From Gammaproteobacteria bacterium (GTDB lineage Bacteria; Pseudomonadota; Gammaproteobacteria; Enterobacterales; Psychrobiaceae): a DNA stretch of 63,069 bases. The DNA lies in contig JABSRT010000009.1 in NCBI GenBank assembly GCA_013214945.1, positions 1 to 63,069 of the forward strand. Direction: 5' to 3'. Under the pieces are notes generated by a model. That model saw only the letters and a list, made by a program, of their open reading frames with translations, was not told where the DNA came from and did not search any database. Positions 9,169 to 26,536 of this stretch are shown piece after piece (within the stretch, counting starts at the first letter, position 1; every line of letters starts with the position of its first letter). The position numbers and the translations under genes are program-made.

Positions 9169-10188
9169 TTAGTTCGTTAGTTTGCTTAGTTTGTACACCA
9201 TTTCAACAGCAAGATCATCAAAGTAATAACCACTTTGAACCACTCTCTCATAACCTTTAGCTGCAATATTTTCCCTGCCTTGATCGTTCAATAAATAATA
9301 TTGAAGTTTTTTTAGAAGTTCATCATCATTTTCGAAAAATTCAGCCTCAACTCCTTCTTTAAATAATCGCAGATGTTCTTGCGTTCGCTCCATCAACATA
9401 AAACCACCACATGCTGGTATCTCGAATGTACGAGAAGTCTGAGTATCACTATTTACCTTTCTCAAAAATCCTAACGTGATCTTTGATTCAGAAATAGCAG
9501 CAGTATAATCATGCCCGGTAAGCTCTCGGAAATGGATGTTTAAATTAGAATGAAATCCTCCTTTATGCCTATCCCACATAGCACCAAAAATATTTATCTT
9601 AACTCCATTTAAAGCTAAATAATTTAAAGTACTAAAACGGTCCTTCTCATAACTTCCAATGAAAAGAACATCATAGTTAAAAATCAACCTCTCCGGATTT
9701 CGTGGTATATGAAAATATTTATCTGCCCGCTTGTCAATATAAAAAACAGGTTTACTGCAAGTCTTTTCTATAGATCTATAACTTGGTATATTTACACTAA
9801 ATAATGCATCATAATAGTTTATACCGAAGTGGTAAAAATATGATTTATTATGCCATTTTGACATATTATCACCACTCCAAGAAATTAATTTTGTATTTGG
9901 ATAGGCTCGTTTTATTTCTCGCAGAGTAGATGGGTAAAGCCTATTACCTTTGAATATAAAAACAACATCGTATGAATTACTAGAAAGTTCATTCAACAAC
10001 CTGCGGTTAATACCTGATTTATCAAATTCAAGGTTTAGCTTATTTGCAACACGATCAAGAAATGTAATTCGCTCAGAAGATTTTTTACTCCAAATGACAG
10101 AAGCTTTAAAATTTCTTACTAAAGCATTGACCAGATAATCTGTCGAAGATTTAGCTTCATGGCGATCCGAAACAATCAGGAAATTCAT
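9169..10188 (-). CDS. CgeB-like glycosyltransferase (glycos_transf_1_2 type)
   Basis: This 339-aa protein resembles the CgeB/DUF3880 branch of GT-B glycosyltransferases. The N-terminal domain has FLIVSDRHEAKSSTDYLVNA and VVFIFKGNRLYPSTLREIK. The C-terminal domain contains TSRTFEIPACGGFMLMERT, EFFENDDELLKKLQYYLLND and ENIAAKGYERVVQSGYYFDD, the usual end of PF13524-type proteins. Its ATG overlaps the preceding GT2 stop by four bases. It probably adds one residue of the repeat unit. Donor and linkage cannot be read from the sequence. It lies in the AT-rich, likely transferred, part of the locus. Confidence 0.8.
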   Translation of the reverse strand: MNFLIVSDRHEAKSSTDYLVNALVRNFKASVIWSKKSSERITFLDRVANKLNLEFDKSGINRRLLNELSSNSYDVVFIFKGNRLYPSTLREIKRAYPNTKLISWSGDNMSKWHNKSYFYHFGINYYDALFSVNIPSYRSIEKTCSKPVFYIDKRADKYFHIPRNPERLIFNYDVLFIGSYEKDRFSTLNYLALNGVKINIFGAMWDRHKGGFHSNLNIHFRELTGHDYTAAISESKITLGFLRKVNSDTQTSRTFEIPACGGFMLMERTQEHLRLFKEGVEAEFFENDDELLKKLQYYLLNDQGRENIAAKGYERVVQSGYYFDDLAVEMVYKLSKLTN

Positions 10189-11099
10189 TTAAACTCTCGC
10201 TTAGTTCGACCGAGACGCCCACCAAAAAAGTCCCAAACTCCAAATAAGTACGCTTTAATAAACCCAAAATGAAACGAGTAATTTTTAACCGTGACAAAAA
10301 AAAGATATAATGACAACAAAACAACACCATCATTATTTTTACTCTTAAAAAATAACAAATTCCTCGTTTTGTAATACCACCTAACAGCTTGATGATTACC
10401 AAAAGTTTTTCCACCTTCATGAAAAACCTTTGAACTCTTAACCATATATGAGGTAATACCTTCAGACTTCAACCTATAACAAAAATCATTTTCTTCAACA
10501 TACATAAATAAACGCTCATCAAATCTATGTCCTTTAATAAATTTTGTTTTAATAAACATACTAGTACCAATTACAGCATCTACAGGATAAGCCTCGCCTA
10601 ATAATTCGATATTTTTTGGGGAACCATAGCCTTTAAAGCCAGACATATTAACCGTTCCGGTCACAGTACCATGGTCCTCATAAATAGTTGAACCGAGGAT
10701 TTTTAAATCATCATTTGCCATGTAGGGTAACAATGCGCTTAATACATTAATATCTAGACTTAAATCATTATTAAGAAGCCAAATGACATCATAATAATCA
10801 CTTGACTCCGCATAATCTAAAACAATATTATTAGCCGCACCAAAGCCATCATTAGTACTTGCATAAATATGATTACTTCCAATATTAAGATCAGAATTAT
10901 CATTTACGTAGTTGAAATTTAATAATTGACTAAGCTTTTCTCTAAAATTTTCAAGACCTTCAGTATTACTACTATTATCTACGATAAAAAAATCAATACT
11001 ATAACCTAAACGATCTATTGTCCGAATAATGTTATTTACAAGGGAAATGGTATCATCATACGAATTGTAATTAACAATACTTACCAAAAGTTTAATCAT
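10185..11099 (-). CDS. Family 2 glycosyltransferase (rhamnosyltransferase-like)
   Basis: A GT-A fold, family 2 enzyme of 304 aa. The N-terminal SIVNYNSYDDTISLV, FIVDNSSN, the DXD-like NNDLSL around residue 114 and the acceptor-side segment DERLFMYVEENDFCYRLK are all present. The layout matches the WbbL-like rhamnosyltransferase/GT2 group, which suits the rfbBADC genes upstream, but the donor is only inferred. A C-terminal hydrophobic stretch (VVLLSLYLFFVTV) may anchor it to the membrane. It overlaps the MptE-like gene by eight bases and the CgeB-like gene by four, so these three are translationally linked. Confidence 0.86.
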   Translation of the reverse strand: MIKLLVSIVNYNSYDDTISLVNNIIRTIDRLGYSIDFFIVDNSSNTEGLENFREKLSQLLNFNYVNDNSDLNIGSNHIYASTNDGFGAANNIVLDYAESSDYYDVIWLLNNDLSLDINVLSALLPYMANDDLKILGSTIYEDHGTVTGTVNMSGFKGYGSPKNIELLGEAYPVDAVIGTSMFIKTKFIKGHRFDERLFMYVEENDFCYRLKSEGITSYMVKSSKVFHEGGKTFGNHQAVRWYYKTRNLLFFKSKNNDGVVLLSLYLFFVTVKNYSFHFGFIKAYLFGVWDFFGGRLGRTKREFK

Positions 11100-11955
11100 T
11101 AATTTCTCCTATTACCCGAGAATAACTGTCCATCTCTACCATAGTTATAATGCCACGACCGGTAAGATTTATAATTTTAGAACCATTTCTCAATGTATAT
11201 TTATCCAGATAATGCCACGACAACATCCAACGGCACACGCTGTTCAAAGCTTCCCTAACTCCTACCCAGCTTTGAAATTTCTCAAGATCATCTTTATTTA
11301 CACCGTACGAGTGAGAGTCAACACCTAAGAGTAAATTTGCAAAGCCGTCGCCATCAACGCCAGTAATATAAATTTGTTTAAAGCCCATATATACTGCTGT
11401 AATGATTCCGTTTTCAACTACATTTTTACCTAAACTGCGCTTAGTAAGATCTATTTTAGCTTTAGTATTAAAACGTGTTAACTCCAGACTAAGATCTATC
11501 CAAATAATTTTATATTTCACTTTATATTCGACGAACTTTGAATCATTAAACCATTTACTATTCAAAATAAATGTCACATCTGGATTTATTTTCGCAATAT
11601 CATCAAGGTATGTGATTGGCCATTGACCTGTTGCTAATTTATTATCAACAATTATATGGTAACAAGGTTTTATTACAGCATAATTCTCATCCAAGAATGC
11701 TCGATTAACCATAAAAACACATTGATCTTTAAGCCTCGTAATATCTTGTTGTTTTAATGACGGTCCATTACCTAGTACAAAGCAATTTTTTCCTTTATGG
11801 ATATCTTTAATTTCAGTATTTAACGATAAATGTGAGTGTTGATTTAACAAATACCTTTCAACTAAATACTTCGTATATCTGATCGTATTATTTATCGAAT
11901 AAAGTAAATCAAACAACATATCTGATATTTTGTCAGTTTTTGTTTTCTTATTCAT
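11092..11955 (-). CDS. MptE-like (DUF115/PF01973-type) protein, candidate CMP-ulosonate transferase
   Basis: This 287-aa protein has a Rossmann-type core with GNGPSLK at residues 62-68, VNRAF at 83-87, GKNVVENGI at 176-184 and ITGVDGDG at 197-204. The pattern is that of MptE-like/DUF115 proteins. The same GNGPSL loop is known from Maf flagellin glycosyltransferases and GT42 sialyltransferases, which use CMP-activated nonulosonic acids. Its gene comes directly after a CMP-sugar synthetase, HAD phosphatase and aldolase. A role in transferring the CMP-activated product is therefore inferred, not shown. The preceding aldolase ends in a related domain. A short AT-rich gap (48 bases) separates it from the cytidylyltransferase gene. 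Confidence 0.7.
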   Translation of the reverse strand: MNKKTKTDKISDMLFDLLYSINNTIRYTKYLVERYLLNQHSHLSLNTEIKDIHKGKNCFVLGNGPSLKQQDITRLKDQCVFMVNRAFLDENYAVIKPCYHIIVDNKLATGQWPITYLDDIAKINPDVTFILNSKWFNDSKFVEYKVKYKIIWIDLSLELTRFNTKAKIDLTKRSLGKNVVENGIITAVYMGFKQIYITGVDGDGFANLLLGVDSHSYGVNKDDLEKFQSWVGVREALNSVCRWMLSWHYLDKYTLRNGSKIINLTGRGIITMVEMDSYSRVIGEIND

Positions 11956-12003
11956 TATAATTACTCTCTATCATTGTTTGTTATTCCTGAACAACTAGAA
12001 ATG

Positions 12004-12693
12004 TTAACTTTCCCTGGCTAATTTAGCTTTCCATGTACTCTCTGCATAAGTAAAGTCATGTGGCCAATCAATATCTATAGAACTCTCTGCATCTTGAATA
12101 AACATCGATGGTTTTAAACCTATTCGATCATTTAACGAAATATACTGCTCAATGCTACTCAAAAATACCGAACTATCAATTTCGTAAAGTGGTTGAATTG
12201 ATTGTGTTCTTGGCCATTTTTCAATATTACGGTCATAGCTTAACGGCTTATCTTTATTCCAAATAAAACCTTTTAACTCTTTGACTGTCATTAGAGAGTC
12301 GAAGCCTTGGGTTAAAGCTTCGATATATTGCTGAATAATCGCCTCATAGCCAAACTCATCCAAAAATGGAGACGTCACATGCGTCCAAAGAACATGACCA
12401 GTAGTAATTATGCTAGGAACATATTTAATTAGCTCATCAGTACTAGTGCTGCTAGAGCCTAAATGTTCAGGTCTTTCGTCGATGAAAATCCTAGAATCGG
12501 TATAAGTAGTTGCAAAATCTAGTACAATTTCATCATTAGATGAGACAACTATTGAATCAACAGTCGACAAGCGGGTTAATTGATCCAATTTTATTTTCAA
12601 TAAACCACCTTTAACACCAGCAAAGTCTTTCGTATTTTTATTAGGGATACGTTCACTGCCTCTTCGGCATGGGAGGAAAACAGTCATCAACAT
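12004..12693 (-). CDS. Acylneuraminate cytidylyltransferase-like CMP-sugar synthetase
   Basis: A 229-aa NeuA/KdsB-type enzyme, expected to couple CTP to a 2-keto-3-deoxy sugar acid giving a CMP-sugar. The CTP-binding motif CRRGSERIPNKN (residues 9-20) is intact, followed by VDSIVVSSNDE and WTHVTSPFLD. The C-terminal EIDSSVFLSS and ESSIDIDWPHDF carry the acidic metal residues seen in the family. The start at 12693 is supported by AAGGAG eight bases before it; the ATG two codons later is too far from that site. No neuB, neuC, kdsA or leg/pse genes are nearby, so the substrate is not ordinary Neu5Ac, Leg or Pse from this locus. The adjacent aldolase probably makes it. Confidence 0.88.
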   Translation of the reverse strand: MLMTVFLPCRRGSERIPNKNTKDFAGVKGGLLKIKLDQLTRLSTVDSIVVSSNDEIVLDFATTYTDSRIFIDERPEHLGSSSTSTDELIKYVPSIITTGHVLWTHVTSPFLDEFGYEAIIQQYIEALTQGFDSLMTVKELKGFIWNKDKPLSYDRNIEKWPRTQSIQPLYEIDSSVFLSSIEQYISLNDRIGLKPSMFIQDAESSIDIDWPHDFTYAESTWKAKLARES

Positions 12694-12694
12694 G

Positions 12695-13330
12695 TTACCA
12701 ACTCCTTAATAAGGTAAAGCCTTCGCTCTGCGCTAAAGACTCAAGCTTTTTTTTCTCATTGGAGAAAGGGATAAAACCAATAAAATCAATAGCATTTTCA
12801 TTTGCTGCTTCATAATCAGATAAAGAATCTCCAATCATCACGGCTCTTCCTGAACTTTGCTGAAGAATCTTAGCCACATTCTCTGATTTCGCAACAGGTG
12901 ATCCAAAAATATCTTCAAAATATTGCTTTAGATTACGATGTTTGAATACCTGCCGTAACTCCTCTTGGGCAGACCCACTGGCAATATATAGCTTGGCTGA
13001 GCAATCTTCGATTACTTGTATGAAACCAGGAGTTAAATTAGCGGTTAAATACAAAGCTTCACACCGCATAGAATAATGACCTAACACATTTTCATATAAA
13101 TTTTTATCCATTTTACTGATGATATTCTCAATAAAATATTGTATATGATGAAATCGAGACTTACCGAAATTCCCTTTAAAATAGGCACAACATTGCTCTA
13201 TTTCTTGACAATCAACGTTGGTGAGACTCAAAGATTCACGCATAGCTTGAACTTTGAGATTATTTGAATCTAGGATTACTCCATCGCAATCAAAAATAAT
13301 TGTATCATAGAGTTCAAAACTTGGGTGCAT
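12695..13330 (-). CDS. HAD-family phosphatase (candidate ulosonate-phosphate phosphatase)
   Basis: A 211-aa HAD hydrolase with a helical cap. Motif I is FDCDGVILDS (D14 nucleophile, D16), motif II lies in YIASGSAQEE, the motif III lysine is in VAKSENVAK, and motif IV is MIGDSLSDYEAA. All catalytic residues are present. It overlaps the aldolase gene by 17 bases, and its stop is one base before the cytidylyltransferase start, so the three are translated as a unit. In sialic acid and Kdo routes a phosphatase acts between condensation and CMP activation, and the gene order suggests the same role here. The substrate is an inference. Confidence 0.86.
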   Translation of the reverse strand: MHPSFELYDTIIFDCDGVILDSNNLKVQAMRESLSLTNVDCQEIEQCCAYFKGNFGKSRFHHIQYFIENIISKMDKNLYENVLGHYSMRCEALYLTANLTPGFIQVIEDCSAKLYIASGSAQEELRQVFKHRNLKQYFEDIFGSPVAKSENVAKILQQSSGRAVMIGDSLSDYEAANENAIDFIGFIPFSNEKKKLESLAQSEGFTLLRSW

Positions 13331-14936
13331 AGATAGAGCCCTTGTCTATTGGGTAAGATGTTGGTGTTAATGATGTGATTTTTTTGCTGCCTTCTGATAA
13401 ATAATATAAATTAAAGATATCAACCATTTCTTGCTGCCGGGTATCATTTTCCCCATATCCATCAAAACCCACAACGGAAATTGAATTAACATTCGATTCT
13501 AGCAATCCCCCTAAAATATAAGCGCTAGTGATATCATAAGGTGTCACGGTATGAGTTCCATTCATAGATAACTTATTTGGAGTTACCTCCAAGCCGTAAT
13601 CAATAAGCTTGAGATTTTTTAATTCACTAAGTTCTAAATCAGAGAAGCGACATTTAGGTAAAATGATAGGCTTATCTAATTCCTTGTAATATTTGAAGTC
13701 TGAAAGAAATTTAGAATTATGAGAAATAACATAGTAATCAATGAAATCTTCAGAAAGCCATGTTGCAATATTGATTGAAACCACCACTGGTCTATTTTTT
13801 TTAATATACAACTCAATATCTTGCGCGTACTTCTCCGTACTTGGAGCATTAGCTACAATTAAAACTTCTTTACCATCAAATAGATTATTAATGGCTGTAG
13901 AGCCACTTGGAGCTTTCAGCTTATTATCAGAGAAGCTCAATGCATTATTAAGAACAGCACCATTATATGACGTTGTTCCTTCTAATTTACTTAAATAATC
14001 TATCGCACCAATAATTTCATCCGTTCCATAATGAGCGTTAGATAGTAGATTCTGGATATACGTAGGGTGAACATCGTTTTGCGCGCCTAGAAAATATAAT
14101 AAATTACTGCCCCAACCATGCTTTTTTTGCATCCCTTCGAAAAAGCGAATTACAAGTTCATAAATAGGTTTTGGATTGTATTTAGTTGGCTGCATACACA
14201 AAGACGCAAGTAAACTTTCCGTTGCAGTATTGCCGGCACCTCGCCCCATACCTGTTATTGTTGAATCCAACCACTCAACCCCTGCCTCCATCGCATACAG
14301 CGTATTATCAAGTCCTCTTCCCATATTATTATGAGTATGAATACCTAGCGGCCCATTCCAATTTGAACGTAAAGCATCAACAATCCGGCCAACTTCTTTT
14401 GCTTCCATATTCCCCAAGGAATCTGCAAAATACAGAACATCAAGTTCTATCCAATTTGCTATGTGATTTGCTTTATCTTTAATTTCACTTGTTGCTTTCC
14501 CCCCTGCCTGCATTAAATTAAAACCAACTATATACCCGAGTTTTTTAAGACATGCGACGATAGGCCCACACTCCTCGACTTCCTTAAAATGTCCAGCAAC
14601 TCGAACTAAACTAACTTTACTTTTATCTGCAGGTACAAATAATATATTAATAGCCTCTTCTACAGATAAACCAGACTCTAAAATAGTTTTAGCATCTACC
14701 ATAACACCATAAGTAGGACCTTCAGGCAAAGCTAACGTATTAAGAAAGTCTTCCGTTGTATAAGCAAAAGCCCCCAAAAAAACCTTTTGAGGGAAATTCC
14801 TAAGCCCTAACTCCACATAATCAATGTTTGATTTAGCTACACTATTTAAATACTCTTTAACAACTATTGTGTCAAAATCCCAATTATTATAATAACCGCC
14901 ATCTCGTAAGGTACAATCTAGAATGCAAGTAGCCAT
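13314..14936 (-). CDS. DRE-TIM (HMGL-like) aldolase fused to a degenerate MptE-like domain
   Basis: This 540-aa protein has two parts. Residues 1-320 or so form a class II DRE-TIM barrel: LDCTLRDGG with D7, R11 and D12, metal-binding H200-T-H202, and GMGRGAGNT at 229-237, as in 4-hydroxy-2-oxovalerate aldolases. Such enzymes join or split pyruvate and an aldehyde. Residues 355-540 form a second Rossmann-like domain with VLIVANAPST (358-367) and VVGFDGYG (488-495), resembling the MptE-like protein two genes on, but with the GNGPS loop changed to ANAPS. The proposed job is condensing pyruvate with a phosphorylated sugar aldehyde to give a 2-keto-3-deoxy acid for the HAD and CMP enzymes. That role is inferred from domains and gene order. 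Confidence 0.84.
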   Translation of the reverse strand: MATCILDCTLRDGGYYNNWDFDTIVVKEYLNSVAKSNIDYVELGLRNFPQKVFLGAFAYTTEDFLNTLALPEGPTYGVMVDAKTILESGLSVEEAINILFVPADKSKVSLVRVAGHFKEVEECGPIVACLKKLGYIVGFNLMQAGGKATSEIKDKANHIANWIELDVLYFADSLGNMEAKEVGRIVDALRSNWNGPLGIHTHNNMGRGLDNTLYAMEAGVEWLDSTITGMGRGAGNTATESLLASLCMQPTKYNPKPIYELVIRFFEGMQKKHGWGSNLLYFLGAQNDVHPTYIQNLLSNAHYGTDEIIGAIDYLSKLEGTTSYNGAVLNNALSFSDNKLKAPSGSTAINNLFDGKEVLIVANAPSTEKYAQDIELYIKKNRPVVVSINIATWLSEDFIDYYVISHNSKFLSDFKYYKELDKPIILPKCRFSDLELSELKNLKLIDYGLEVTPNKLSMNGTHTVTPYDITSAYILGGLLESNVNSISVVGFDGYGENDTRQQEMVDIFNLYYLSEGSKKITSLTPTSYPIDKGSIYAPKF

Positions 14937-15431: not shown

Positions 15432-16210
15432 CGAACTAGGGAAGACAATCAACTTATTGGTCGAATCAAGTATTTCAGGTTAGAAAACGGCTGTTTTTTT
15501 GTTACCGCAATTTAATGCTCGATTTGCGTGATAATGGCGAAAACTGTAGTAAAAATTGAATATACAAAATCATGAAAGCCGCTAAAATGAGGGCAATTAA
15601 AGGCTACAAACGCAGAGCTAGTTTTGGTGGCAGTTCTGTTAATTTTACAGCACCACACACACTAAACTGTCAATTTAATGTGAACTACCCCAGTAAAGTT
15701 TGGGTGACTGACTTTACCTACAGTGTGCACGCATCAAAATTGGCTGTACCTGACTGTAGTCATTGATTTGTTTTCACGCAAAGTTGTTGGTTGGTCAATG
15801 AAAAACACACCTAAAGCTGATCTTGTGATTGATGCACTTTTAATGGTTGTTTGGCGGCGTCAGCCGACAGAAAAGGTCATAGTGCATTCTGATCAAGGTG
15901 TGCAATATACCAGCTCAGATTACCGCTGTTTCTTTAAGGAACATAATTTAGAAGCTAGCATGAGCCATCATGGTAATTGCCATGACAATGCCGTTGCTGA
16001 GAGCTTATTCTCACTACTAAAAAAGGATCGGGTTAAACGTAAAATCTATAAGACTAGGGATGATGCTCGATCAGAGATATTTAATTATATTGAAAACTTC
16101 TACAACCCTCAGCGTCATCATGGTACTAATAACGGACTGTCTCCAATGGAGTTCGAAAAAGCAGTATTACGAGAACCTAGAAGTATCTAGTAAACTCCTG
16201 GCGTACCACT
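15432..16210 (+). pseudogene. Decayed IS3-family transposase (orfB remnant)
   Basis: Three pieces of an IS3-type OrfB integrase follow each other on the plus strand. The first (from about 15438) reads REDNQLIGRIKYFRLENG. The second (to about 15720) has AIKGYKRRASFGGS and VWVTDFTY. The third (15730-16190) has NWLYLTVVIDLFSRKVVGWS, HSDQGVQYTS and GNCHDNAVAESLFSLLKKD. An in-frame TGA at 15557-15559 and a frameshift near 15722 break the gene, and OrfA is not recognisable. The DDE residues in the last piece are intact. An IS3-like inverted-repeat end may lie at 16183-16209. The element is opposite in strand to the surrounding operon and surely inactive. Confidence 0.88.
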
Positions 16211-16289: not shown

Positions 16290-17297
16290 TTAATCAGTTA
16301 CAAAATCCACCAATTCAGAAACCTGATCTTCAACTAATGACTTAGCTGCAATATAATTATCTGCATTCTGTATCATATCAATCATTTTTTCAGCTAGGTC
16401 GTATTTATCTAGATGATCGAAAACCATAGAAGGTTCAACAACCTGGTATACATAAGCGATGTTTGGGGCTAATATCTTCAATCCAACTTGTGCGGCTTCT
16501 ATAAGAGGCAACCCAAATGTCTCTTTCTCTGAAGGAAACACAAGAACTTCAGATTTATTATAAAGATCACAAACTTTGCTCTTAGGCAATATACCATAAT
16601 TAACAATTTCAAGTGAGCCTTGAGAGTTTATAGTATTAATCTTTGAAACAAGATCATCCCGGGTTTTTTCGATGGTAAGAGCAATAGAGCAATAAACTCC
16701 TTTACGGGACATTATATCTAGTGCATCTAAGAGAAGTTCGTGATTCTTATGAGCATGAGCAAGTGAAATATAACAAAAATCGTACTTTTTGTTAGTATCT
16801 TTACCTTCACAACGTCTAAAAAATGGAGTTACTTTAGCATTTACATTACCATAGAGTTTTTGGAAATTATTTTTCATTAACTGATTCTGACAAACGAAAA
16901 AATCAACATTCCTAAGAAAAGTGTGAATATATAGTTGCTGAAGACTATATTTAATAAACATCTTAAATCCTGATTTATATAATTTACTAAGATTTAAAAC
17001 CAAATAGGGATTATGCATATAAACAAGAGATTTTCTTGACTTCACTAAAGGGGGAAGATTTCCAAAATATATGGCATTATCGATCTTTTTACCAAAAAGT
17101 AAAATTTTCTTTATTACAGAAGAAAAATAAACAACTTTTAGGTTTTCTTTATCTACAAAATGTTCTAATGAATGATCTATAAAAAGATTAACTTTTATAT
17201 TTTTTCTATGTAAAAGTAAATAATCAACTAGATACTCTAGTAACTCTTTTCCTCCTCCATTTTTAATATTTGGAGCAATTATATTAATAATGTTCAT
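16290..17297 (-). CDS. Family 4 glycosyltransferase
   Basis: A 335-aa GT-B enzyme with the family 4 C-terminal signature. NNGGGKELLEYL-like IKNGGGKELLEYL lies near the N-terminus (acceptor side). KYDFCYISLAHAHKNHELLLDAL follows, then VLVFPSEKETFGLPLIEAAQVG with the conserved E-x7-E. It probably adds one sugar of the repeat unit; donor unknown. It stands alone between the IS3 and ISAs1 remnants, is very AT-rich (many A and T runs) and has lost its close neighbours. It is therefore the least certain member of the operon to be expressed, though its frame is intact. Confidence 0.83.
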   Translation of the reverse strand: MNIINIIAPNIKNGGGKELLEYLVDYLLLHRKNIKVNLFIDHSLEHFVDKENLKVVYFSSVIKKILLFGKKIDNAIYFGNLPPLVKSRKSLVYMHNPYLVLNLSKLYKSGFKMFIKYSLQQLYIHTFLRNVDFFVCQNQLMKNNFQKLYGNVNAKVTPFFRRCEGKDTNKKYDFCYISLAHAHKNHELLLDALDIMSRKGVYCSIALTIEKTRDDLVSKINTINSQGSLEIVNYGILPKSKVCDLYNKSEVLVFPSEKETFGLPLIEAAQVGLKILAPNIAYVYQVVEPSMVFDHLDKYDLAEKMIDMIQNADNYIAAKSLVEDQVSELVDFVTD

Positions 17298-17567: not shown

Positions 17568-18583
17568 CTAAAACTTTTCTGCATTTAGTAGATTCAATGC
17601 GACGTGTCGAACTTTCGCGAAGTTTTCCGCCGCATCGCCTCGTCTAATTCTGCATGCATTCTCTCGGAATGCTGTATCTAATTTCCAATGAAGTTTTACT
17701 TCAATCGACCAGTGCTCTCGTATCGCATGAGCAAAGTCTTTTGCACTGAGCTTCGCTGAACTAATGTAATACCGAATTGACGCGCTGACTGCGGGTTTAC
17801 CATCTTCTTGACGAAATAATACGGCATAACCCAGCGTCTTTAAACTCGGCCACTCAAACGCTAAATCACCAAGCCCATCAATGTCATGGTTGACTTTGTG
17901 TAATCTTGTCTCTAAACGACCGCGAGATATTTCTTGCGTCGCGTAGGTATTATCTAGCGAATCTTGCAGATCCTTTAGGTCAAAAATATTATCAAAGTCT
18001 TGTTCTAAGCGCTTTTGGTTACCTTTTACCGTTAACAAATAATCAGCTTCACATTCTAATATCTTGGTCGCTATTTTCTTCTGGCAACCCATTGCATCAA
18101 TGGTAACTAAGCATCCCCGTATATCCAATAGCTTTAATAGTTCTGGGATAGCCGTGATCTCATTTGACTTCTCTTGTGTTTTTATTTGTCCTAATACAGC
18201 TTCATTTGCTGCCGAGAACGCACTGACCATATGAATTGCACCACGCTTTTTACTCTTATCATATGAACCCCCGTTTTAGCATTAAAAGCATCGCCTTTTG
18301 TTGCTGTATGGTAATCTTTCATCTATGCAATGAAACACGTTTGAAACTGTTTAGGGTTAATCATACTAATCATTCGAGCAATAGTATCATGAACTGGAAC
18401 ACCATTCTCAAAGTCACCGTACTGTTTCAGCCATTCTAATTTATCACGACCAAAATCTTCAATTTATTCCCAGCTTTCAGCGATGGCTAAAAAGATAATG
18501 TCTGATAGTTTATGCGCTACTTTCCAGTTCTGCCGAGGGTCCTTAATGATTAATATATGGTCCACTAAGGTTAATCTGTTCAT
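17568..18583 (-). pseudogene. Decayed ISAs1-family transposase
   Basis: The C-terminal 220 codons (17568-18230) are open and read as an ISAs1/H-repeat transposase: EKSNEITAIPELLKLLDIRG, VTIDAMGCQKKIA, LLTVKGNQK and IREHWSIEVKLHWKLDTAF. Upstream, the N-terminal part (from ATG 18583) is recognisable but broken. There is a TAA at 18464-18466 after ESWE and a TAG at 18323-18325 after TCFIA. A deletion with a frameshift follows just before the SYDKSKKRGAIHMVSA segment. About eight residues also seem missing after FLAIA. The element is inactive. It lies in the same direction as the operon between wzy and a glycosyltransferase. Confidence 0.9.
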
Positions 18584-23138: not shown

Positions 23139-23684
23139 TTAAAGCAATGTTATTTTATTCAACAATTTACCATCGATATCTTTTGGGGATAACGTCAGTT
23201 CATCAATTAATGGCCACTCAATATTCAAACTTGGTTCATTCCATAACAAAGTAACTTCAGCGTTTGGGTTATAATAATCTGTACACTTATATACAAATTC
23301 AGCTTCATCACTAGTCACGTAGAAACCATGAGCAAAACCCTTTGGCACCCATAATTGTCGTTTATTCTCTGCAGAAAGGTACTCCCCAACCCATTGACCA
23401 AACGTGGGAGAGTTTTTACGAATGTCCACAGCAACATCAAATACTTCTCCTGAGATCACGCGCACAAGCTTTCCCTGTGTATTTTCAGTTTGGTAATGCA
23501 AACCACGCAAAATGCCTTTTCTGGATTTTGAGTGATTATCTTGCACAAACTGAGTGGCTTCACCTGTCACGAGCGCTTCAAATTGTTTTTGACTCCAGGT
23601 TTCCATAAAAAAACCACGCTCATCACCGAATACGCTTGGTTCAATGATTTTGACATCGGAAATTTTTGTATCAATTACTTTCAT
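23139..23684 (-). CDS. rfbC: dTDP-4-dehydrorhamnose 3,5-epimerase
   Basis: RfbC/RmlC is the third step of dTDP-L-rhamnose synthesis. The cupin fold carries GDERGFFMETW, the catalytic-His region GILRGLHYQ, and the second motif VWVPKGFAHGFYV-like LWVPKGFAHGFYVTSDEAEF with the conserved tyrosine. The length of 181 aa is usual. The start at 23684 (MKVIDTKISDVK) is taken because family members begin there and GGA lies eight bases upstream. A longer frame to 23744 runs into rfbD. It is separated from the rfbD stop by four bases. Confidence 0.95.
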   Translation of the reverse strand: MKVIDTKISDVKIIEPSVFGDERGFFMETWSQKQFEALVTGEATQFVQDNHSKSRKGILRGLHYQTENTQGKLVRVISGEVFDVAVDIRKNSPTFGQWVGEYLSAENKRQLWVPKGFAHGFYVTSDEAEFVYKCTDYYNPNAEVTLLWNEPSLNIEWPLIDELTLSPKDIDGKLLNKITLL

Positions 23685-23688
23685 TGGA

Positions 23689-24570
23689 TTATTCCGTATA
23701 GGCTTTAATGTGTTGTAATGCGGCCTTCCAATCACTCGCTTCAATTGAAAAAGTCTGTGTGATTTTTTTTGTGCTCAATTTGGAATTAGCTGGGCGTTTC
23801 GCCAGTGTCGGGTATTGCTCTGTAGTAATACTGTGTAATATTGGCTTCTTACTAATCACTTTATTTTCTTCAGCCACATCAAAGATAGCGTGTGCAAACT
23901 CATACCAGCTAACATGAGGCAAGCCTGAATAATGATAAATACCGTACTCGACTGGCATACCTGTTGTAATTTTTTCAGCGATACCAATTAATGCATTAGC
24001 AATATCACCTGCATAGGTAGGCCCACCGATTTGATCACCCACGACACTCAACTCATCTCGACAAGTGCCTAAACGAAGCATCGTTTTTACGAAGTTATTG
24101 CCATTTACACCAAACACCCAGGCGGTACGAAGAATAATGTGTTTCTCACACGCGTATGCTACGGCTATTTCCCCCGCCAATTTACTTTCACCGTAAATGC
24201 CTTGTGGGTTAGTTACATCTCTTTCTTCATATTCGCCTTTTTTATTGCCCTCAAAGACGTAATCAGTTGATATATGCAACATTGCAGCATTTACCTGTTG
24301 AGCAGCTTGCGCCAAATAACGAGGGCCATCACGGTTAATGGCATAAGACAGAGCAACCTCATCTTCAGCTCTATCGACTGCGGTGTACGCTGCGGCATTA
24401 ATAATGATATTTGGCTTAAATTTTTGAACCGTTTGAATCACAGCCCTTTTAACGGTAATGTCTAAGTCTTCTCTGCCTAGAGCAAGTACTTCAACATTAT
24501 CTTGTTTGCTCAATTTATCTGTTAGACTATGACCAACTTGACCACGGCATCCTGTAATTAAAACACGCAT
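23689..24570 (-). CDS. rfbD: dTDP-4-dehydrorhamnose reductase
   Basis: RfbD/RmlD makes dTDP-L-rhamnose, the last step of the pathway. It is an extended SDR of 293 aa: GCRGQVGHSL at residues 7-16, INAAAYTAVDRAE, ISTDYVFEG and the catalytic YGESK (Y-x-x-x-K). TAWVFG and DQIGGPTYAGDIA follow, as in RmlD. The ATG shares one base with the rfbA stop (24570), so translation is coupled. Confidence 0.96.
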   Translation of the reverse strand: MRVLITGCRGQVGHSLTDKLSKQDNVEVLALGREDLDITVKRAVIQTVQKFKPNIIINAAAYTAVDRAEDEVALSYAINRDGPRYLAQAAQQVNAAMLHISTDYVFEGNKKGEYEERDVTNPQGIYGESKLAGEIAVAYACEKHIILRTAWVFGVNGNNFVKTMLRLGTCRDELSVVGDQIGGPTYAGDIANALIGIAEKITTGMPVEYGIYHYSGLPHVSWYEFAHAIFDVAEENKVISKKPILHSITTEQYPTLAKRPANSKLSTKKITQTFSIEASDWKAALQHIKAYTE

Positions 24571-25460
24571 TAACGTGCTACCTTCTTTTTTTGGCTTTCA
24601 GTGACCAAGCGCATTAAATATTGACCGTATTCATTTTTCATCATTGGTTTAGCAATCGTGACTACTTGTTCATCAGACAACCAGCAATTTCGCCACGCTA
24701 TCTCTTCTAAACACGCCACTTTAAGCCCTTGCACGTTTTCAATGGTTTGTACAAAAGAAGACGCTTCATGCAAGCTTTCATGCGTTCCCGTATCAAGCCA
24801 TGCAAAACCACGACCTAATAACTCAACATTCAATGAGCCATCATGAAGGTACATTTCATTCAACGTGGTAATTTCAAGCTCACCACGATGTGATGGTTTG
24901 ACTTGCTTAGCCAAATCAACCACGCGGTTATCGTAAAAATACAACCCCGTTACTGCATAATTCGATTTTGGTATTTCTGGCTTCTCTTCAATAGAGATAG
25001 CTTTCATGTTGTCATCAAACTCAACCACACCAAAGCGCTCTGGGTCTTTGACTTGATAACCAAATACCGTTGCACCACTCTCACGAGAAGCGGCACTTTT
25101 TAGTGTTTGTGAGAAAGACTGACCATAAAAAACATTATCACCCAATACGAGGCACACTGAATCATCGCCAATAAACTCTTCACCAATGATAAAAGCCTGA
25201 GCTAAACCATCTGGGCTTGGCTGAATGGCGTATTCGAGGTTAATACCAAAATCAGAGCCATCTCCAAGTAAACGCTTAAATCCCGTATTATCTTCAGGGG
25301 TAGTGATTATTAGAATATCCTTAATGCCCGCAAGCATTAAGGTTGATATTGGGTAAAATACCATTGGCTTATCATAGATAGGCAATAGCTGTTTAGACAC
25401 ACCTCGAGTTAATGGATATAAACGTGTACCAGTGCCTCCGGCTAGAACAATCCCTTTCAT
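24570..25460 (-). CDS. rfbA: Glucose-1-phosphate thymidylyltransferase
   Basis: RfbA/RmlA joins dTTP and glucose-1-phosphate to dTDP-glucose. Nucleotidyltransferase motif [25 protein letters not shown] spans residues 8-32. VLGDNVFYG carries the metal aspartate, and [20 protein letters not shown] and [14 protein letters not shown] are typical. The length of 296 aa is usual. It shares one base with the rfbB stop and one with the rfbD start. As in this family, allosteric control by dTDP-rhamnose is expected. Confidence 0.97.
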
Positions 25461-26536
25461 TATTTCACCTCCTGATTTGAGACACCTAAACGCTCACCGG
25501 CATAAGAACCATCAAGCACACGTGACCACCATGCTTTGTTATCTAAATACCATTCAACGGTTTTCCGAATGCCTGATTCGAATGTTTCTTCTGGCTTCCA
25601 ATCCAATTCACGCTCAATTTTAGAGGTATCAATAGCGTAACGAATATCATGACCCGGACGGTCTGTGACGTACATAATTAAATCTAGGTAATACGCAACG
25701 CCTACAGGTTTATTCGGTACCAATTTTTCAAGTAACGAACAAATGGTTTTTACCACGTCGATATTGGCTTTTTCATTATTCCCACCAATATTGTAAGTTT
25801 CGCCGACTTCGCCTTCTGTCACTACTTTATAAAGCGCACGAGCATGGTCTTCAACAAATAGCCAATCACGAATTTGCATGCCATTACCATAAACCGGCAA
25901 AGGTTTACCCTCTAGTGCATTTAAAATAACTAGCGGGATCAATTTTTCAGGAAAATGGTAAGGGCCGTAGTTATTAGAGCAATTAGTTACCAAGGTTGGT
26001 AGACCATAGGTACGTTGCCATGCGCGGACTAAATGGTCGCTTGACGCTTTTGATGCTGAATAGGGGCTACTTGGTTCATATGACGTTGTTTCTGTAAATA
26101 AGCCATCCGTTCCTTCTAAATCACCGTATACCTCATCGGTAGAGATATGGTGGAAGCGAAATGCATCATTTCGATTTTTTTCAAGCTTATTCCAGTAAGA
26201 TCGGGTCGCTTCAAGTAACGTATAGGTACCAACAATATTAGTTTCAATAAATGCTGCGGGGCCATCAATTGAACGGTCTACATGTGACTCAGCTGCTAAG
26301 TGCATTACCGCATCAGGCTGATATTCCGAAAATACTCGGTCAAGATCTTCGCGGTTGCAAATATCGACTTGTTCAAACGCATAGCGGTCATTGTTTTCAA
26401 TATCAACTAATGACTCCAAGTTGCCCGCGTAGGTTAATTTATCTACATTGATGATACTATCGTTTGTGTTTTTGATAACATGACGAATAACAGCAGAGCC
26501 GATAAAACCAGCACCGCCAGTAACGAGGATTTTCAT
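25460..26536 (-). CDS. rfbB: dTDP-glucose 4,6-dehydratase
   Basis: RfbB/RmlB makes dTDP-4-keto-6-deoxyglucose. An extended SDR of 358 aa: [13 protein letters not shown] at residues 7-19, [27 protein letters not shown] with the D-E catalytic pair, and YSASKASSD (Y-x-x-x-K). It begins the rfbBADC set. It is preceded by a 221-base gap after wecA, which could hold an internal promoter, though no strong boxes are seen. Confidence 0.97.

Follow-up and report, generated by a model that had tools for sequence, protein, structure and literature searches.

An aldolase, HAD phosphatase and CMP-transferase gene module as a candidate route to a CMP-activated 2-keto-3-deoxy sugar acid

In this study we analysed a window of 63,069 nucleotides (assembly GCA_013214945.1, contig JABSRT010000009.1), which forms the start of a 198-kb contig in a 4.7-Mb gammaproteobacterial genome, and in it three neighbouring genes for an aldolase, a HAD phosphatase and a cytidine monophosphate (CMP) transferase. 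We consider it fairly probable that these genes form a self-contained pathway to a CMP-activated 2-keto-3-deoxy sugar acid (an ulosonic acid) for a surface polysaccharide. The established routes to CMP-activated ulosonic acids, such as 3-deoxy-D-manno-octulosonic acid (Kdo) and sialic, pseudaminic and legionaminic acid, start with a synthase that condenses phosphoenolpyruvate (PEP). In the proposed pathway a metal-dependent aldolase domain would join pyruvate to a phosphorylated aldose to give a 2-keto-3-deoxy acid phosphate, a step for which other pathways use KdsA or NeuB, the PEP-condensing synthases. The phosphate would be stripped by the HAD enzyme and the acid charged with CMP by an enzyme that is KdsB-like in some species and NeuA-like in others. 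The sugar might then be transferred by a Maf/GT42-like domain fused to the aldolase, or by MptE-like or other glycosyltransferases of the locus. We infer these reactions and all of their substrates. Only three genes recur, so the aldehyde should be a common metabolite; candidates would be glyceraldehyde-3-phosphate, erythrose-4-phosphate and a pentose-5-phosphate, leading to six-, seven- or eight-carbon acids, and our data favour none of them.

A first-pass annotation of this DNA had proposed such a pathway with a separate MptE-like transferase as fourth member. The module of pyruvate-aldolase-like, phosphatase and CMP-activation genes stands, but the MptE-like gene as a constant member does not. 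The four minus-strand reading frames are present in the open reading frame (ORF) list where they had been placed, with Pfam scores all above the curated cut-offs. They are also packed as tightly as described, the aldolase and HAD genes overlapping by 17 bp and the HAD and CMP genes being separated by 1 bp; the MptE-like gene follows the CMP gene after 48 bp and overlaps the next gene, a GT2 glycosyltransferase, by 8 bp.

To describe the conservation of the module we used a sample of 36 genomes, consisting of 29 relatives from one scan of genome contigs, 6 from a search of the class and the window, with neighbouring genes gathered by ORF, hidden Markov model and tblastn. The CMP-transferase adjoins the aldolase or sits one gene away in 35 of the 36. 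The gene between them is the HAD, or in two loci a gene for an HpaI/GarL-type pyruvate aldolase (L034:8228-8992 and L035:8228-8989; the assignment comes from a profile scan of the L034 protein, to which the L035 copy is 78% identical). The HAD occurs in 31 of the 36 loci, lying about 3.7 kb off in L059 and L063 and on the opposite strand in L064, and three of the five misses are contig ends (L036, L066, L071). The HAD motifs named in the first-pass annotation are confirmed, since all 31 of 31 sequences (the window and its relatives) have D14, D16, S118, K148, D168 and D172 unchanged. No other family is found near the aldolase in more than 8 of the 35 clustered loci. The co-occurrence applies to the trio and not to the MptE-like gene; no KdsA is linked to the trio, and in most loci no NeuB is either. 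As a control we used seven loci of short homologues without the C-terminal domain, none of which had a KdsB, NeuA or HAD match at E <= 1e-4, though L045 has a NeuB-like match and L043 a marginal HAD match (E 0.001). In the reverse search, the module-type KdsB was found in 2 of 369 genomes, both times beside the aldolase (one cut by a contig end), at a strict threshold (1e-48) that would miss more divergent module KdsBs.

The best evidence for the product class is that two families of CMP enzymes, both known to charge 2-keto-3-deoxy acids, are found in the same slot. The enzyme is KdsB-like in 22 loci (one cut by a contig end) and NeuA-like in 13, the window and 12 others. The NeuA-like assignment of the window enzyme agrees with its PF02348 score (37.5 bits against a gathering score of 22.6), and P8, R10, S13, R15, K19 and N20 are invariant in 13 of 13 NeuA-type enzymes; its score of 42.3 bits lies below the PseF equivalog cut-off of 205.7. 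In Vibrio penaeicida, the nearest relative of the window, the CMP enzyme is of the KdsB type. On a tree of 37 aldolases the two partner types need 8 changes, at least 6 of which are forced by well-supported branches (the tree and the alignment omit L072, which has a broken aldolase gene, and L067 is unlabelled on the tree). As few changes were needed in 36 and 41 of 500 label shuffles, so the CMP type is only weakly clustered on the tree. This exchange supports the pathway more strongly than the evidence available to the first-pass annotation.

We set 23 module KdsBs against 23 canonical ones taken from the same genome set. The canonical set comes from 30 loci (L085-L114), 5 of which fell outside the extraction pattern; two more, L113 and L114, were left out because their positions identify them as the module KdsBs of L056 and L070. 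R10, R15, K19, D100 and D235 are invariant in both sets (23 of 23 each), and the roles of the KdsB residues for cytidine triphosphate (CTP) and magnesium (R10, R15, K19 and the Asp pair) are those given in PMC3149649. Six positions separate the two sets completely, namely T125N, V142P, H181Q, G183C, L209I and Q211I (23 of 23 against 23 of 23), so that instead of the canonical signature H181, G183 and Q211 all 23 module sequences have Q, C and I. Positions such as 181 and 211 presumably contact Kdo through H181 and Q211. The module KdsBs form a separate group in a quick tree (SH-aLRT 100), and the five that were scanned all stay below the TIGR00466 cut-off (128.5-148.1 bits against 155.2) and exceed that of the subfamily NF009905. 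Judging from these sequence differences, the product of the module KdsB is probably not Kdo. The E. coli KdsB takes azide at C8 of Kdo, not at C7, according to PMC12409901.

The aldolase domain matches PF00682 (HMGL-like) with 82.6 bits against a gathering score of 29. Its closest structural match is 3dxi, the N-terminal domain of the putative aldolase BVU_2661 from Bacteroides vulgatus (E 2e-47 by sequence), and in Foldseek the model of the whole protein (pLDDT 89.2) gave a TMt of 0.87 with 3dxi and of 0.78-0.81 with DmpG (1nvm). The two proteins belong to the same aldolase subfamily, with 32% identity (Foldseek) and the LRDGGYY motif in common; the structure covers only the N-terminal domain of BVU_2661 and the entry title gives no function. 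The metal ligands of DmpG are D18, H200 and H202. The first-pass annotation had named D7, H200 and H202 in the window protein, and both histidines indeed align with those of DmpG, but the aspartate is D12, which phmmer pairs with DmpG D18. All 33 of 33 aligned homologues have D12, H200 and H202. The DRE-TIM assignment was likewise correct, though it left out a second domain at about residues 338-540. The DmpG-type aldolases (1nvm, 4lrs, 4jn6, 8ih7) have the fold and the metal residues in common with the module aldolase at 17-18% identity, but carry His21 where the module has Tyr15, and DmpG has an aldehyde dehydrogenase partner according to the structure titles, whereas the module aldolase has a transferase-like domain. 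With 84.7 bits the protein lies below the cut-off of 286 for the 4-hydroxy-2-oxovalerate aldolase equivalog TIGR03217.

Several observations weigh against the proposed pathway, and some of them belong to a particular alternative discussed below. KdsB and NeuA are members of one superfamily, and their exchange is therefore less striking than one between unrelated enzymes would be. There is no CMP gene nearby in L067, and a HAD of the module family is missing from L065 and L076. The window genome moreover holds one KdsA and two NeuB, so that the earlier statement that neither synthase is present is right for the 63-kb window (no tblastn match at E <= 1e-3) but not for the genome. In this genome a NeuB from elsewhere might feed the CMP enzyme, a case that the first-pass annotation had itself named as contrary to its proposal. 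Both NeuB genes are on a different contig, with about 18 kb between them, and one adjoins NeuC and a CMP-transferase gene of PseF-like type (178.6 bits, below the PseF cut-off).

These synthases allow a different explanation, in which the module CMP enzyme activates a conventional Kdo or nonulosonic acid made by KdsA or NeuB elsewhere, and the aldolase and HAD make a separate building block, for example a hydroxy-acid substituent. We regard this as unlikely. KdsA was found by tblastn in none of the fetched loci. In favour of this explanation, NeuB is in the flanks of 9 of the 36; yet seven of these nine carry, within the fetched stretch, a separate NeuA-family gene besides the module KdsB (L049, L062, L064, L069, L070, L071, L075), while no separate NeuA was seen in L073 and only the module's own in L065. 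In 18 of the 36 genomes, including 7 of the 13 with a NeuA-type module, NeuB was not found (completeness of the locus-derived genomes is unrated), and two of these consist of a single contig with a completeness rating of 99-100%. The search for KdsA found none in 8 of the 36, namely SAR11 L055, all six Prochlorococcus (completeness unrated) and the archaeon, and six of the eight have a KdsB-type module (6 of 22). The NeuA-types would then have to use Kdo and the KdsB-types nonulosonic acids. The genomes do offer this, since all seven NeuB-less genomes with a NeuA-type module have KdsA and five of the six KdsA-less genomes with a KdsB-type module have NeuB, but with such crosswise feeding each CMP enzyme would have to take the product of the other family, which we consider unlikely. 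The six fixed positions at which the module KdsBs differ from the canonical KdsBs of the same genomes also argue against a conventional sugar. In favour of a conventional sugar, only one genome of the 36 is without both synthases, the 1.1-Mb uncultured assembly L055 of unrated completeness, which has a canonical KdsB and whose KdsA may therefore just be missing.

It is also possible, but improbable in our view, that the aldolase performs another carbon-carbon reaction, either of Claisen type with an acyl-CoA or a retro-aldol cleavage, and that the keto acid comes from a second aldolase. Isopropylmalate and homocitrate synthases, for instance, are DRE-TIM enzymes as well. The position of DmpG His21, the proposed base in that enzyme, is Tyr15 in 33 of 33 module homologues, so the chemistry may differ. 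HpaI-type or KDG-aldolase-like (2-keto-3-deoxygluconate aldolase-like) genes are present in 3 of the 36 loci (L034, L035, L076), where another enzyme might do the pyruvate step and where the division of labour could be different. Against this, an HpaI-type tblastn search matched L034 and L035 only (the KDG-aldolase-like gene was not searched in the other loci), and the aldolase is nearer to pyruvate aldolases than to acyl-CoA synthases in both sequence and fold, although the margin in fold is modest. A CTP-activated phosphonate or other non-ulosonate pathway is very improbable: FR-900098-type pathways do pair an HMGL-like synthase with a NeuA/KdsB-like nucleotidyltransferase, but no PEP mutase was found above the cut-off in the window genome, the one genome of the 36 searched (best 134.5 bits against 319.55), and 22 of 35 loci have a KdsB-like partner, all five scanned exceeding the NF009905 cut-off.

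A fuller version of the aldolase-based pathway is more tentative. It would be a PEP-independent route to an undescribed CMP-ulosonic acid, spread in marine bacteria including Prochlorococcus and SAR11, in which the 540-residue protein performs both the first step, as a pyruvate aldolase, and the last, a Maf/GT42-like transfer, with the two functions split in an archaeon. The predicted structure of the C-terminal domain has the fold of the Maf flagellin glycosyltransferase (5mu5) and of the GT42 enzyme CstII (1ro7, 1ro8) at 12-14% identity, though unlike these proteins it is fused to an aldolase. Two other observations may speak against a transferase role. Foldseek with this domain ranked SteA and MptE first (E 4e-4 or worse), which have the same fold, and Maf and CstII were outside the best 50. 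CstII uses His188, and no invariant His is found in 33 sequences of the domain. PF01973 has no match in the window domain; of 24 members, 7 match it at E <= 1, with 1.6e-4 as the best value, and a stand-alone archaeal version scores 24.0 bits against a gathering score of 34.6. In a profile-profile comparison with the MptE-like set the match is limited to a short GxGPS stretch. We infer the transferase role with lower confidence than the class of the pathway.

The proposed pathway follows the logic of the KdsA-KdsC-KdsB pathway to CMP-Kdo, with carbon-carbon condensation, dephosphorylation and CMP activation. It differs in that an aldolase replaces KdsA, which depends on PEP, in that the HAD is of a different type, and in that the KdsB belongs to a separate group with changed positions. 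With the NeuB-NeuA pathways to sialic, pseudaminic and legionaminic acid, the window and 12 other genomes have the NeuA-like CMP enzyme in common, but NeuB is not part of the module. What would be new is the first step of a CMP-ulosonate pathway, together with the unusual fusion of an aldolase to a transferase-like domain. We did not find the module described in the open-access full-text literature (subscription journals are mostly not covered), and the word 'aldolase' is absent from the main texts of PMC4616057, PMC7541508 and PMC6856556. If our interpretation is right, the module represents a second chemical logic for CMP-ulosonic acids, predicts a new sugar in many surface polysaccharides and offers a source of a Kdo-like acid to those ocean bacteria for which the search turned up no KdsA. 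Genome annotation would also be corrected: in the two Leisingera plasmid records examined (of three), which add two complete operons, the genes are named generically and the module KdsBs are labelled Kdo cytidylyltransferases.

The module is found in Gammaproteobacteria, Alphaproteobacteria and Prochlorococcus, and an archaeon has a relative of it in split form; its carriers are marine, plant-associated and other microbes. Within its genus this genome is the only one of nine with the aldolase, and of 369 Gammaproteobacteria genomes 7, this one among them, encode the full-length protein (an eighth is cut by a contig end). The locus is therefore accessory, which is usual for O-antigen loci. A distant-mode DNA search with the Brenneria aldolase gene found no match in E. 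coli. In phages there is one weak match, annotated as 4-hydroxy-2-oxovalerate aldolase, and the Streptomyces match carries no annotation.

The features of the gene run are listed in Table 1. A profile scan of the window found WecB and WbcJ above their cut-offs and an FnlA-like gene below its cut-off around the module, together with Wzz, a polysaccharide export protein and a NusG-family gene; rmlA-D lie at 23139-26536 (labelled by eye from the ORF list). From this gene content, the region reads as an O-antigen or capsule locus.

Table 1. Features of the gene run that contains the module, in window coordinates.
Feature	Position	Strand	Description
Aldolase gene	13314-14936	-	540 aa
Aldolase domain, residues 1 to ~335	13932..14936	-	HMGL-like DRE-TIM barrel, 4-hydroxy-2-oxovalerate-aldolase-like type
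C-terminal domain of aldolase protein, residues 338-540	13317..13925	-	Maf/GT42-like predicted fold; candidate CMP-sugar transferase or CMP-sugar binding domain
HAD-IA phosphatase, proposed ulosonate-phosphate phosphatase	12695-13330	-	211 aa; PF13419 (HAD_2) 49.5 bits
NeuA/PseF-like CMP-transferase	12004-12693	-	229 aa; PF02348 (CTP_transf_3) 37.5 bits
MptE-like protein, candidate separate transferase	11092-11955	-	287 aa; PF01973 43.0 bits
GT2 glycosyltransferase, same gene run	10185..11099	-	PF00535 33.7 bits
Glyco_trans_1_2 glycosyltransferase, same gene run	9169..10188	-	PF13524 99.7 bits

Just upstream of the module, a glycosyltransferase gene (16290-17297) is flanked by transposase pieces at 15723-16190 (plus strand; integrase-core rve) and 17568-18230 (minus strand; DDE_Tnp_1), which suggests insertions in the locus. 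In the Thermoplasmatales locus (L076:9318-12546) the C-terminal domain and the aldolase are encoded by two adjacent genes, after which come a NeuA-like gene and one of KDG-aldolase/N-acetylneuraminate-lyase-like type. The aldolase gene of a Candidatus Symbiopectobacterium (L072:9959-11578) is broken into several reading frames, while the neighbouring HAD and CMP genes are open. Short HMGL-like relatives of about 340 residues without the C-terminal domain are found on two rhizobial plasmids (L083:7968-8990, L115:7974-8999), grouped with SDR, HAD-type and aminotransferase or reductase genes and no annotated CMP-transferase, and apparently represent another use of this aldolase fold. In the window genome (L046:6464-10244, contig C12), a divergent NeuB-like gene about 18 kb from the NeuB, NeuC and PseF-like set is near homologues of WbuX, HisH and HisF/WbuZ, as in acetamidino-sugar modification.

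The separate MptE-like gene, which the first-pass annotation had included in the module, was rejected as a member: a tblastn homologue is absent from the other loci, apart from the genome's own Maf-like gene, and the constant transferase-like part is the C-terminal domain of the aldolase itself. The window MptE-like protein matches CstII chains with E of about 1e-4. Differing MptE-like neighbours were seen by eye in six loci (L038, L057, L058, L060, L061, L074), and in the last five of these, mostly Pseudomonas/Stutzerimonas, the MptE-like protein has an ASGPS motif and its gene is located downstream of the HAD. The surroundings of L060, also by eye, resemble a lipopolysaccharide core locus with heptosyltransferase-like and carbamoyltransferase-like genes.

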